From Pseudomonas sp. GR 6-02 (GTDB lineage Bacteria; Pseudomonadota; Gammaproteobacteria; Pseudomonadales; Pseudomonadaceae): a DNA stretch of 64,000 nucleotides. The notes beneath the pieces were generated by a model, which worked only from the letters and a program-made list of their open reading frames with translations, was not told the DNA's origin and made no database searches. Below are positions 16,077-25,090 of this stretch, in pieces (the stretch's first letter is position 1; each line of letters opens with the position of its first letter). The translations under genes and the position numbers were made by a program. The stretch covers positions 6,234,001-6,298,000 of the forward strand of contig NZ_CP011567.1 in assembly GCF_001655615.1 (NCBI RefSeq), read 5' to 3'.

Positions 16077-17921
16077 GTGCTTACCAGAATCAAGCGTGAG
16101 AAAGTACTTTCGCCAAGTGCTCGGGCAAACCTGTACGAATATGACTCAAACCTGCCCATGGGAAGTTGGGTGGTGTGGTGGTATGGGAGGTTGATCAAAA
16201 ACTTCGCGGACAACACCGTTCCCCTGGTGATGGTTACTCTGCAACGCGTGGACGGTGATTTACTCACTGAAGAATTCGAGACGTGCCAGATCGCAATCAG
16301 CCGTCTACGGTTTTATCCGCAGGGCTTGATTCTGGAAGATCGACTACCGGTTGCCAAAATCGCTTTGGAAACACTCTGGTTCAAGGTCGGTTTCGGCTAC
16401 AAGGACTGGAATTTCCGCACCGCTAAAGAGCTCCACCGCTGTTCAAGCCAGCATGAGCTTTCACTGCCGGATGAATGCGCCAATGACTGGTCCTTGGAGT
16501 TCAAGCAACCAAAGGGTGCGCTCATGCTGAACTGTGTGGATTATCTAGTTCGAGGCTACTCAATTCGCTCCGAAATCCCGCGAATCCTGACCACCTATCG
16601 TTGGAACGAGGCAAAAAACCGTCTACTGAAACACGACACCCCTTCAAACGAAAAAAACCTGCCCGATAGTCTGGTTGTTTATCCGCACCCGGACATGGTC
16701 AAAGAGGATGAAGTGTTTTTGGCTCTCCTTGCTAATGACGATCGTCGGACGCGAAAAGCAGCGCAGAGTATCTTTTCGGAGATCGACACCCCCAGCTTCA
16801 AAGCGGGCAATCCGCACACTCTCCAAGTGCTTCCGTGGTTCGACGGACCAACTGAGTTGGCGTGCCGCGGACTCTGGATCAATGGCGGCAAGGATTTTGT
16901 ATGCATGGAGCTGCGCGGCTATATCGAACCCACCGGCAAACGGATCGACAACCGAGGCTATCGTCCAAGCAAAAAGGCCAAACACGTCGAAGACCGAAGG
17001 GGTGTTCCTCCGATTAAACGCTTCTTGACCGAAGCTGATCTGGATATAGGGATGACCGACACGTACCAACCTCGCAGCCCTTACCCGCGTGAGGACGTCG
17101 TTCATGATGACTTCCACATTGTCTCCACCCGTGAGAAGACCCGGACGTTGTTAGATTCTCCTGACGAAGAGACCCAGGCTCACTCAGTGGACGAGTTGCC
17201 ACCCAGCAAATACTCCACCGGTGATTCACTGGGTGAGAAGGACGACGACACCGCAAAATTCACAATGACCGCCGAGCCTGTTGACGCCGATTACAATGGG
17301 GCACTGGCCGAAATGTGGAAGTCCTTCACTCGATTGCATGCGGCCGGCCAAATCGATGAGGTTCGTTGGTACCTCAACAAAGAATTTTATGAAAAAGGAC
17401 CACCCAGGCTCTTTGAGTTGTCTGATCGCCAATACACTGAAAAAGACGACCCCGAACGCAAGCTTGAAAAATGGCTCAACCTGCATAGCCGCCGCCGTCG
17501 AGGCGTTATGTTCATCGTCATCAAGGTGAATGGTAAGTATTATCTTGTCGTTGAGACCGAACGGCGCCACTGGGTCAACAAGGACGGCGAACAGCAGGAA
17601 GAGTCCTCGCGTGGCCTGATCTGCGCGGTGAGCGGTGCCAGAGAGATACAGAGCGTGTGCGAGTTCATTGATGCCGAACTGCCAAAACACGCAGGCGTGT
17701 TCAAGAACCTGGCCTGGACCTTGGATAATCGTTTTGCCCTTTACTCGCACCGCCCCAGTGAAGATAAGGCAACCTGGTTGGACGGGGCCGCGATTCACGC
17801 GCTGCGGCAGATAGGCGTCACCCTGCGCAAGCCTGTCAAACACTCTACGGCCACCGAAGCCAACAAGAGCGATGTATCAGAAGCCGATCGCGATCAGCTC
17901 GCAAACGCTGCGCTATCCTGA
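16077..17921 (+). CDS. tnsE: TnsE-like transposition protein
   Basis: 614 residues from the GTG at 16077, which has AAGGAG five bases upstream; an in-frame ATG at 16029 would add 16 residues but lacks a ribosome site. The layout matches Tn7 TnsE: an early WVVWWYGRLI segment, RLPVAKIALETLWFKVGF before a cysteine-poor helix region, PKGALMLNCVDYLV (PKGALEQSAVVQLL in Tn7), a WFDGP...ELRG(Y)IEP beta region, a long acidic linker (about residues 345-410) and a C-terminal domain with MFIVIKVNGKYYLVVETE. TnsE steers Tn7 towards replicating, conjugating DNA by contacting the sliding clamp. It converges on tniE with stops overlapping by nine bases. The match is from recalled sequence and remote, so confidence is moderate. 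Confidence 0.68.
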   Translation: MLTRIKREKVLSPSARANLYEYDSNLPMGSWVVWWYGRLIKNFADNTVPLVMVTLQRVDGDLLTEEFETCQIAISRLRFYPQGLILEDRLPVAKIALETLWFKVGFGYKDWNFRTAKELHRCSSQHELSLPDECANDWSLEFKQPKGALMLNCVDYLVRGYSIRSEIPRILTTYRWNEAKNRLLKHDTPSNEKNLPDSLVVYPHPDMVKEDEVFLALLANDDRRTRKAAQSIFSEIDTPSFKAGNPHTLQVLPWFDGPTELACRGLWINGGKDFVCMELRGYIEPTGKRIDNRGYRPSKKAKHVEDRRGVPPIKRFLTEADLDIGMTDTYQPRSPYPREDVVHDDFHIVSTREKTRTLLDSPDEETQAHSVDELPPSKYSTGDSLGEKDDDTAKFTMTAEPVDADYNGALAEMWKSFTRLHAAGQIDEVRWYLNKEFYEKGPPRLFELSDRQYTEKDDPERKLEKWLNLHSRRRRGVMFIVIKVNGKYYLVVETERRHWVNKDGEQQEESSRGLICAVSGAREIQSVCEFIDAELPKHAGVFKNLAWTLDNRFALYSHRPSEDKATWLDGAAIHALRQIGVTLRKPVKHSTATEANKSDVSEADRDQLANAALS

Positions 17922-19337
17922 ATAATGATCGCGAGCTCCCGGCACCCAGTATTCCTCACCGCCAAACCTCACCGTAAAACCAGGCTGATCGCCCTGCGGC
18001 TGCTCCTCGTAATGCAACGGCGAATTGAGGGGAAGTTTGAGCCTATGAAAGTAGGCCATGGCTGCTCTGATCCATTCTTGCGCCGTCATGTTTCCTTCAG
18101 CGGTCGCGTAGAGTTCAGTTAATTTGACCTCTGCAAGGTGGCGGGCAGCTTTGGCCAGCCACCTGCGATTAAAACGAGCATCCAGCCCCAACCCATAATG
18201 TCGATTTAAAAACCCAACGAAGCCAAAAAGCGAGGCATGGAGGCCAGGCCGATTACGCAGGAGCAAACGCAGCGCCTGCTGATCCGGAAGCGTTTGGCCC
18301 GTTTCATCACAGTGCTGTAAAAGGCGCAACGCGCTGCTAATTGACATACGCACGGTGCGCAGCTTTACAGAACGGCCGAGCAAATCTTGCCTGTAAGTAT
18401 GAAGAGCATCTCTGGCGATGCCTTCAGGAAAATGCTGCAGTGATGTGCTGATACGACGCTGATCGCTGGTATTTTCTCTGGCCTCAGGATCAACCACTAA
18501 GCCATCAGTTTCCGCCAGCCAGTTCACCACCGAGCGCGAGCGCCTGAGCGTCTCCGCGCCAAAGTGCGCAACCATGTCGGCATAGGAAGGTAACGTCGCC
18601 CAAAGCCCGTATAGCGCCTTCAGAAAAGGTAGGTATCGCTGCATGTTCAGAGCTGCAAACTGCGCGCCTCGGCGTGCTTTGAGCCAGACAGAGAAGCCGC
18701 CCATCGCCGTGCGTAGGCGCTCGTCCTCGATAGCACTGAGCAGGTCGCTTCTACGCACTTCAAACGATGATGCCCAGTAGCAGGCCATGCAAGCGTTACC
18801 CAGACCAGCAGGCATCGGCCTATTGCATTTAGGACAAGGCACCTCTCCCAGCTCAAAGCACTTTTTGCACAGCGCCGGTCCCTCTGCCGAGACAATCACC
18901 CTGGGCTTTCGGCAGGCAGAGCAACAGGCGGTTCTCAACGAGGAATGGCAGGCCGGACAACACCGCAGCACGTGGTCGCCGACTTGAATCCTGACCAGGC
19001 GCGTTGAAGGAGTTGCACAACGCTCGCATGGCTGAGGGCTGCGGAAATAATGCGCGCATGAAGCACATGCCGGACCTTGAGCCGTGAGCCTGCCGATCTT
19101 CAACCCGGAGCGATGACAGCGGACACAGGGCTTATTCACCTCGCACGTACGACAAACCGCAGAAGTATCAAACAGCGGCAGACGGGCAAAGTTGTTGCAG
19201 GCCGGGCAAAGCTTTCGCTTGAAGAGTCGGGCATAGCACGTTTCACAGAAGCGCTTTTCTTGGTGAATCTTCTTGGCTTTGCTCATCGTGCGACCGCATT
19301 CATCGCAGGCACAGGTCTGAGAGGCAGAATTGATCAC
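17913..19337 (-). CDS. tniE: TniE-like transposon protein with a twelve-CxxC zinc-ribbon array
   Basis: 474 residues. The first 190 hold twelve CxxC motifs (CDEC, CETC, CPAC, CRTC, CVRC, CASC, CERC, CPAC, CSAC, CKKC, CPKC, CMAC), enough for six zinc ribbons in tandem. The rest is helical, with a segment around residues 230-300 that resembles the SAM-like DNA-binding domain of tyrosine recombinases; no catalytic Arg/His/Tyr set is visible. Its ATG overlaps the tniD stop (ATGA), so it is the last, translationally coupled gene of the tni operon. By position it equals tniE of Tn6022/AbaR elements, whose role is unclear. It may help recognise the comM site. Confidence 0.75.
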   Translation of the reverse strand: MINSASQTCACDECGRTMSKAKKIHQEKRFCETCYARLFKRKLCPACNNFARLPLFDTSAVCRTCEVNKPCVRCHRSGLKIGRLTAQGPACASCAHYFRSPQPCERCATPSTRLVRIQVGDHVLRCCPACHSSLRTACCSACRKPRVIVSAEGPALCKKCFELGEVPCPKCNRPMPAGLGNACMACYWASSFEVRRSDLLSAIEDERLRTAMGGFSVWLKARRGAQFAALNMQRYLPFLKALYGLWATLPSYADMVAHFGAETLRRSRSVVNWLAETDGLVVDPEARENTSDQRRISTSLQHFPEGIARDALHTYRQDLLGRSVKLRTVRMSISSALRLLQHCDETGQTLPDQQALRLLLRNRPGLHASLFGFVGFLNRHYGLGLDARFNRRWLAKAARHLAEVKLTELYATAEGNMTAQEWIRAAMAYFHRLKLPLNSPLHYEEQPQGDQPGFTVRFGGEEYWVPGARDHYSG

Positions 19338-24354: not shown

Positions 24355-24440
24355 TACTGCCTCATTTAATTCTTGGTGAAAACACGAAGGAATCAGGCCT
24401 GTAGCACTGCATATTCTCAACAAATACTTTTTGTCCCACG

Positions 24441-25090
24441 GCTCGAAACCGCAACCCGGCGAAATCACCCTCGCCCACCATGGCGTGTTGTTCCTCGATG
24501 AGCTTCCAGAGTTTGATCGCAAGGTATTGGAGGTGTTGAGAGAGCCACTGGAATCCGGCCACATCGTGATTTCCCGTGCCAAGGACCGCGTTCGCTTTCC
24601 GGCGCGCTTTCAATTGGTGGCTGCGATGAATCCCTGCCCCTGTGGATATCTTGGCGAGCCAAGTGGTCGTTGTTCCTGCACGCCGGACATGGTGCAGCGC
24701 TATCGCAACAAACTGTCGGGGCCGCTGCTGGACCGCATCGATCTGCACCTGACGGTTGCTCGTGAGGCCACGGCGTTGAATCCTGCGTTGAAACCCGGCG
24801 ACGATACAGCCACCGCCGCCGAGTTGGTTGCTGATGCAAGAGAGCGGCAACACAAACGCCAGGGTTGCGCCAATGCCTTCCTCGACCTGCCAGGCCTACG
24901 CCGGCACTGTAAGTTATCCACAGCCGATGAAAACTGGCTGGAATCCGCCTGCGAGCGTTTAACGCTGTCGTTGCGAGCGGCCCATCGACTGCTCAAGGTC
25001 GCGCGCACGCTGGCGGACCTTGAACAAGCCGACGGGATCAGACGCGAACACTTGGCCGAAGCGCTGCAATATCGGCCAACAACGCTCTAG
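24441..25090 (+). pseudogene. comM: comM (yifB) C-terminal half, disrupted by the Tn7-like element
   Basis: About 216 residues from [15 protein letters not shown] to the natural end ALQYRPTTL. The visible part holds the Walker B region [13 protein letters not shown], the AMNPCPCGYLGEPSGRCSCTP cysteine cluster and the C-terminal Mg-chelatase-like lid domain. The family is about 500 residues, so the N-terminal Lon-like domain and Walker A are missing and lie on the far side of the element. ComM is a hexameric branch-migration helicase that extends strand invasion during natural transformation, so its loss should lower recombination of incoming DNA. A TTG at 24431 could start translation of the fragment, but the product would lack ATP binding. 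Confidence 0.93.

Follow-up and report, generated by a model that had tools for sequence, protein, structure and literature searches.

A Tn7-like transposon in comM of Pseudomonas sp. GR 6-02 and its relatives in two other Pseudomonas species

What has broken comM in Pseudomonas sp. GR 6-02, and can the intruder still move? The question arises in a window of 64,000 nucleotides, positions 6234001-6298000 of this single-contig genome (6,500,345 bp; hereafter G000), where an earlier reading made from the sequence alone saw comM split by a complete Tn7-like transposition module and likened it to the AbaR/Tn6022 elements. The gene set, both ends, a target duplication and a reading frame restored on joining the flanks bear this out, and we conclude, with a probability of about 0.93, that the locus holds a complete Tn6022-family Tn7-like transposon homed into comM. 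It homes to comM in a Pseudomonas and carries metabolic genes, not resistance genes, as cargo. New here is a second Pseudomonas species in which the same transposon has a target duplication of its own and another central cargo.

Ends, target duplication and the split comM

The transposon is 32,122 bp long and runs from window position -7683 to 24438, positions left of the window being given as negative numbers. Its left tip is TGGGACAAAAAG, and the terminal repeats are perfect 12-bp inverted mates. The right boundary lies within the window:

1..24438: in-window portion of the transposon, with both tips and the duplication read; the left 7,684 bp lie outside the window, the tip being at L014:4317
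24427..24438: terminal repeat CTTTTTGTCCCA of the right end, matching the inverted left tip exactly
24439..24443: right copy of the 5-bp target duplication CGGCT; left copy at L014:4312-4316
24444..25090, plus strand: remaining comM 3' half, with the Walker B Asp codon at 24497-24499, 54 bp beyond the duplication

The comM 5' half was found at genome positions 6225470-6226316, 7.7 kb left of the window, where its final codons run into the left tip. The left side thus has what the sequence-only reading had proposed looking for, a comM 5' half directly beside an end with a matching terminal repeat. On the right, an open reading frame spans 24431-25090 and genuine comM starts at 24439 (Pfam Mg_chelatase, 3.8e-52; Mg_chelatase_C, 2.4e-28). 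When the flanks are joined in silico, comM is open and in frame. No second comM was found in the genome: there is a single Mg_chelatase_C match, and one strong ChlI match (156 bits) next to three others of 28-38 bits. An uninterrupted comM site was recovered in 2 of 57 genomes using one strict DNA pattern, a single spelling for which the other 55 genomes are uninformative.

Two details differ from the earlier reading. The predicted duplication was ACCGC, but the flanks repeat CGGCT instead; the site position usual in other elements (GCGGC) was ruled out here, the right side being ACGGC. The transposition genes were also said to abut the C-terminal half of comM. That half does follow them, but tnsA starts some 550 bp short of the right tip, which leaves a small gap between the genes and comM.

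Transposition genes and target selectors

The genes next to the right end, with the names of the first reading in brackets, are as follows:

24307..24428, minus strand: right-end array of four TnsB-site-like repeats from the site-matrix scan, starting at 24307, 24338, 24360 and 24415
23212..23889, minus strand: tnsA (tniC), end-cutting nuclease; PF08722, 7.2e-19; E38, D80, E97xK99
21312..23228, minus strand: tnsB (tniA), DDE transposase; matches TnsB structures, best 5.5e-40; D247, D331, E367
20437..21315, minus strand: tnsC (tniB), AAA+ regulator; PF05621, 8.2e-38; matches TnsC structures; Walker motifs
19334..20479, minus strand: tniQ (tniD), short TniQ of 381 aa; PF06527, 1.4e-16
17913..19337, minus strand: tnsF (tniE), comM target selector, adjoining the short tniQ
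16029..17921, plus strand: tnsE, probable selector of conjugative plasmids, convergent with tnsF and overlapping it by 9 bp

The five minus-strand tni genes and a real TnsE-like gene stand as first listed, but tnsE lies on the plus strand and outside 17913..25090. Each of the six core genes has an open frame. Four of the five minus-strand genes receive a Pfam name and tnsF has no match; for TnsB, Pfam gives an rve match only below the cut-off, and TnsA finds no solved relative by sequence search of structures. The catalytic residues of the nuclease, transposase and ATPase had been called intact, and the alignments agree: TnsA E38, D80 and E97-x-K99, TnsB D247, D331 and E367, and TnsC G65-K66 and D145-E146 are invariant in 27-28 aligned relatives.

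TnsF and TnsE are identified by fold and by place. Neither has a Pfam or NCBIfam match, and profile searches of solved structures return no TnsE or recombinase row for either. The first Foldseek rows for TnsE are TnsE chains, which VIA-align lists as well. For TnsF, VIA-align gives XerD (8.7), IntI4 (7.2) and XerH (5.7), with unrelated rows from 5.0 downward. In the Tn6022 family TnsF combines an N-terminal zinc-finger part with a C-terminal part that resembles a tyrosine recombinase and lacks the catalytic core, an architecture that ours may share. According to the text of Faure 2023 (PMC10293859), TnsF was shown experimentally to be the comM target selector of Acinetobacter Tn6022. A tnsE near tnsF is common in Pseudomonas elements. 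A GGDEF diguanylate cyclase gene (window 15257-15955) adjoins tnsE and is common to the G000 copy and to that of G084, described below.

By the published AjTn6022 experiments, TnsF would bind the part of comM that encodes the Walker B motif, and TniQ would bridge TnsF to TnsC. TnsA and TnsB would cleave at the end repeats and insert the element upstream of that part of comM, in this case 54 bp from the Asp codon, with a 5-bp duplication and a broken comM as the outcome. TnsE would probably offer a second route, to conjugative plasmids.

Set beside known systems, the element shares with Tn6022/AjTn6022 of Acinetobacter johnsonii TnsA, TnsB, TnsC, a short TniQ, TnsF, an opposite-strand tnsE, insertion in comM and a target-site duplication. 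The tnsA-tnsB-tnsC-tniQ-tnsF run is present with tnsF adjoining the short tniQ, and the insertion lies near the Walker B codons between inverted ends. It differs from AjTn6022 in its tips (TGGGACAAAAAG), its catabolic cargo and a tnsE that overlaps the end of tnsF; Faure et al. 2023 (PMC10293859) report a tnsE well away from the core, close to the left end. The sequence covered at L126-L129 shows no tnsE. Our TnsF is about 30% identical to those of the Acinetobacter comM elements. Other Pseudomonas comM elements, such as those of P. japonica, P. huaxiensis, P. monteilii and P. grimontii, have the same gene order as ours and a comM position within 1 bp, but their TnsF is 35-41% identical to ours and their tips read TGTnnn rather than TGGGAC.

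Tn7 itself targets glmS via TnsD. With our element it shares the TnsABC chassis, the 5-bp length of the duplication and the fold of TnsE, but ours lies inside comM, not glmS, and has a short TniQ and TnsF. Tsy of Zoogloea shares a TnsF relative and the comM target; as described by Faure et al. 2023 (PMC10293859), it carries no proteins of Tn7 and the recombinase domain of its TnsF is active, whereas TnsA, TnsB and TnsC are present in ours. The Type I-B1 CRISPR-associated transposon (CAST) likewise uses comM; no Cas family was found among the proteins scanned, some frames being unscanned and no CRISPR array search having been made.

Some points weigh against our conclusion. Transposition is a prediction from sequence. 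The duplication lies 1 bp 3' of the position common to the 15 other elements compared. Foldseek alone gives no E < 0.001 for TnsF or TnsE, and for helical folds a Z of 8.7 over 83 residues, as TnsF has, is a modest value. Even so, we judge the comM transposon to be real, complete and probably active.

The literature searched, which was without supplementary tables and most subscription papers, holds no description of the G000 element or of the inner left end discussed below, and the word Pseudomonas is absent from the main text of Faure et al. 2023 (PMC10293859). The earlier reading further supposed that loss of ComM would lower natural transformation and thereby make the island harder to delete; that a broken comM could restrict transformation is a suggestion already made in that paper.

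Copies in other genomes and the parts they exchange

TnsF (E <= 1e-20) occurs in 19 of 398 sampled Pseudomonas genomes, G000 included. The comM 5' half is present in all 18 others and the tip junction was read in 16 of them (not G085 or G136), so a comM element is not special to G000. Fifteen of the 20 fetched TnsF loci run into the comM 3' half (not L045, L053, L054, L056 or L057). Both junctions were read in 16 elements (ours, 14 relatives and that of G637, below), and, read by eye, 15 of these have a 5/5-base duplication and G319 one of 4/5. A scan of named genomes with an alignment returned 29 loci, 22 in Pseudomonas, five in Acinetobacter, one in Pandoraea and one doubtful, and the same scan with one sequence as query returned no match. 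One of the 29, the locus of an uncultured Acholeplasmataceae bacterium, was discounted as a relative, the match being of 40 residues. Seventy plasmid records have a TnsF match (51 from Acinetobacter), none at 60% identity or above. One genome, G383 (L045, L046), has two Tn6022-like cores with equal TnsF scores; one is at comM, and the second, without a comM junction, is possibly a TnsE-type insertion.

Two relatives in comM stand much closer, with TGGGACAAAAAG tips and TnsABC proteins 94-100% identical to ours. The first, in G084, another Pseudomonas species, is 21,241 bp long and differs by its cargo. Over the outer 15.3 kb the two copies are nearly the same (left 5,239 bp, 99.83% identical; right 10,056 bp, 99.91%), whereas the middle segments, 16.8 kb in G000 against 5.9 kb in G084, are unrelated. 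The comM sequence on either side is only 84.1% (912 bp) and 80.5% (636 bp) identical, and the G084 duplication is GCAGT; we therefore take the two as separate insertions. A cell could in principle take up DNA flanked by comM and recombine it, and the island might on that account have entered G000 or G084 by homologous recombination through its flanks, without transposing in each host. The two duplications, however, lie 1 bp apart and differ, and the flanks are as divergent as stated; we hold this route to be highly improbable.

The second relative, in the Pseudomonas genome G637, is about 22.07 kb long, has the duplication GCAGC and differs from ours in TniQ, TnsF, TnsE, cargo and extra DNA between tnsA and the right end. 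That extra DNA, about 5.8 kb (L144/L152), occupies an unusual place for cargo.

Two other species have this chassis in comM, each copy with a duplication of its own, which suggests recent movement and supports the earlier surmise that the element may still move. Is the G000 copy nevertheless an immobile relic of an old insertion? The left end of another subfamily does lie within it, and transposase activity is only predicted; but the six core frames are open, the motifs intact and the tips perfect mates, and a near-identical copy sits in another species. A relic thus seems improbable to us, and a transposon still able to move the better account.

The cargo that distinguishes G000 from G084 is bordered by repeats:

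1..14382: right part of the variable central cargo, catabolic genes; the full cargo runs from window -2444 to 14382 and differs from that of G084
14388..14407: palindromic repeat marking the right-hand limit of the variable cargo, with a similar copy at window -2466 on the left border

In G000 it encodes LysR regulators, a sugar-acid-dehydratase-like enzyme, DctA-like and galactonate-transporter-like proteins, a PEP-mutase-family lyase, a GhrB-like dehydrogenase, an L-lactate-dehydrogenase-like enzyme and OprD; the four G084 cargo proteins scanned gave DUF6932, RES, HNH and a weak AAA match below the cut-off. A 5.8-kb query from the catabolic cargo had matches in 196 of 199 genomes, its own included; among the matches listed there was no intact donor, only pieces, the best 81% identical over about 1 kb. 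The border repeats, of the palindromic CCGCTTTCGGCC type, sit in degenerate arrays of about 34 bp and also border the G084 cargo. Their exact pattern, drawn from these same copies, occurs nowhere else in the G000 genome, and 14 of the 99 Pseudomonas genomes searched hold a form of it, each in 1-3 copies, against 0 for a reversed-pattern control. The string is not mentioned in the literature searched. With the repeat so scattered, a role in cargo exchange is merely a lead. The left arm shared with G084 carries a TcmP - DUF5131 - TcmP set (L014:4868-8376) that resembles the PADLOC candidate defence sets PDC-M30/M41.

Comparison with G637 extends the exchange to targeting parts. Identity to ours is 94-96% for TnsA, 96% for TnsB and 96% for TnsC, then 77% for TniQ, 68% for TnsF and 42% for TnsE, and nucleotide identity falls from about 90 to 77% near position 20,400. 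If TniQ, TnsF and TnsE simply evolved faster than TnsABC, no exchange of a selector block between the ancestors of G000 and G637 would be needed. The stepwise climb of divergence from TnsA through TnsB, TnsC, TniQ and TnsF to TnsE would suit this, as would the finding that the G637 TniQ and TnsF are the nearest to ours among 16 elements compared. Synonymous divergence (dS), however, climbs as well (TnsA 0.30, TnsB 0.35, TnsC 0.63, TniQ 1.14, TnsF 1.36, TnsE saturated), which selection at the protein level does not explain, and our TnsE is equally far from G637 (42%) and G455 (41%), whereas our TnsB is 96% and 59% identical to theirs. We find differential rates possible but doubtful as a full account. 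On the other side, TnsC is intermediate in dS, which tells against a clean exchange: with G637 still closest for TniQ and TnsF, the history may be graded or owe something to fast evolution. We read these comparisons as exchange of the target selectors between copies, certain in the case of tnsE and probable in that of tniQ-tnsF. The wider proposal, that the ends and TnsABC form a chassis on which the central cargo and a tniQ-tnsF-tnsE block are exchanged between copies, has support short of proof.

The three elements make a useful trio: between two of them little but the cargo differs, and the third has retained the transposase but has other target selectors. With such a set one can ask how cargo and targeting parts swap and whether comM breakage protects elements.

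A second left end inside the element

The site matrix was built from the tips of other elements; its first version held 37 rule-cut strings, some off register, and a cleaned 30-string matrix was used for the inner-pair scan (shuffle control: 9 single hits in 277 kb, pairs uncounted). The matrix finds two sites in the left tip and four in the right one, together 6 in 340 bp, where 0.65 would be expected at the rate seen elsewhere in the element. Lying 4.7 kb inside is a stronger pair headed by TGTGACAT, its two sites 20 bp apart. This inner left end, at L014:8999-9044 (window -3001 to -2956), begins TGTGACATTTGG and has two TnsB-type sites; over 46 bp it matches two TGTGACA-type elements at their tips, with 87% identity (8e-11). 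In seven other elements, each scanned from its left tip, such a pair occurs at the tip only; G084 has the inner pair too, and in G637 none scored, its own left-tip sites likewise falling under that threshold. No matching right end was seen inside the element. We take the inner left end as a putative scar of another Tn6022-type insertion, of a different subfamily. A further end-like stretch, TGTAGCTTTCAGAAATAAATGCGAC, follows at window -2919. A second TGGGAC tip within the element, sought to account for cargo outside tnsE, was rejected, none being end-like at up to 2 mismatches.

Tentatively, and with less conviction than we have in the points above, Tn6022-type subfamilies might hybridise in nature, a fixed chassis of ends and TnsABC trading its tniQ-tnsF-tnsE block and cargo. 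Landing on the same comM base pairs would allow successive or tandem insertions, and so trading; the foreign TGTGACA left end and the repeat-bounded cargo borders would then be its scars.

A repeat of 36-40 bp, AATTATGnnTTTTTGCATAATTnnGCATAAAGC, lies near both left ends, at element positions 208-243 and 4957-4992 (window -7476 and -2727). It also occurs downstream of tnsF in G637 (39646-39685 of the joined stretch) and may perhaps be regulatory.

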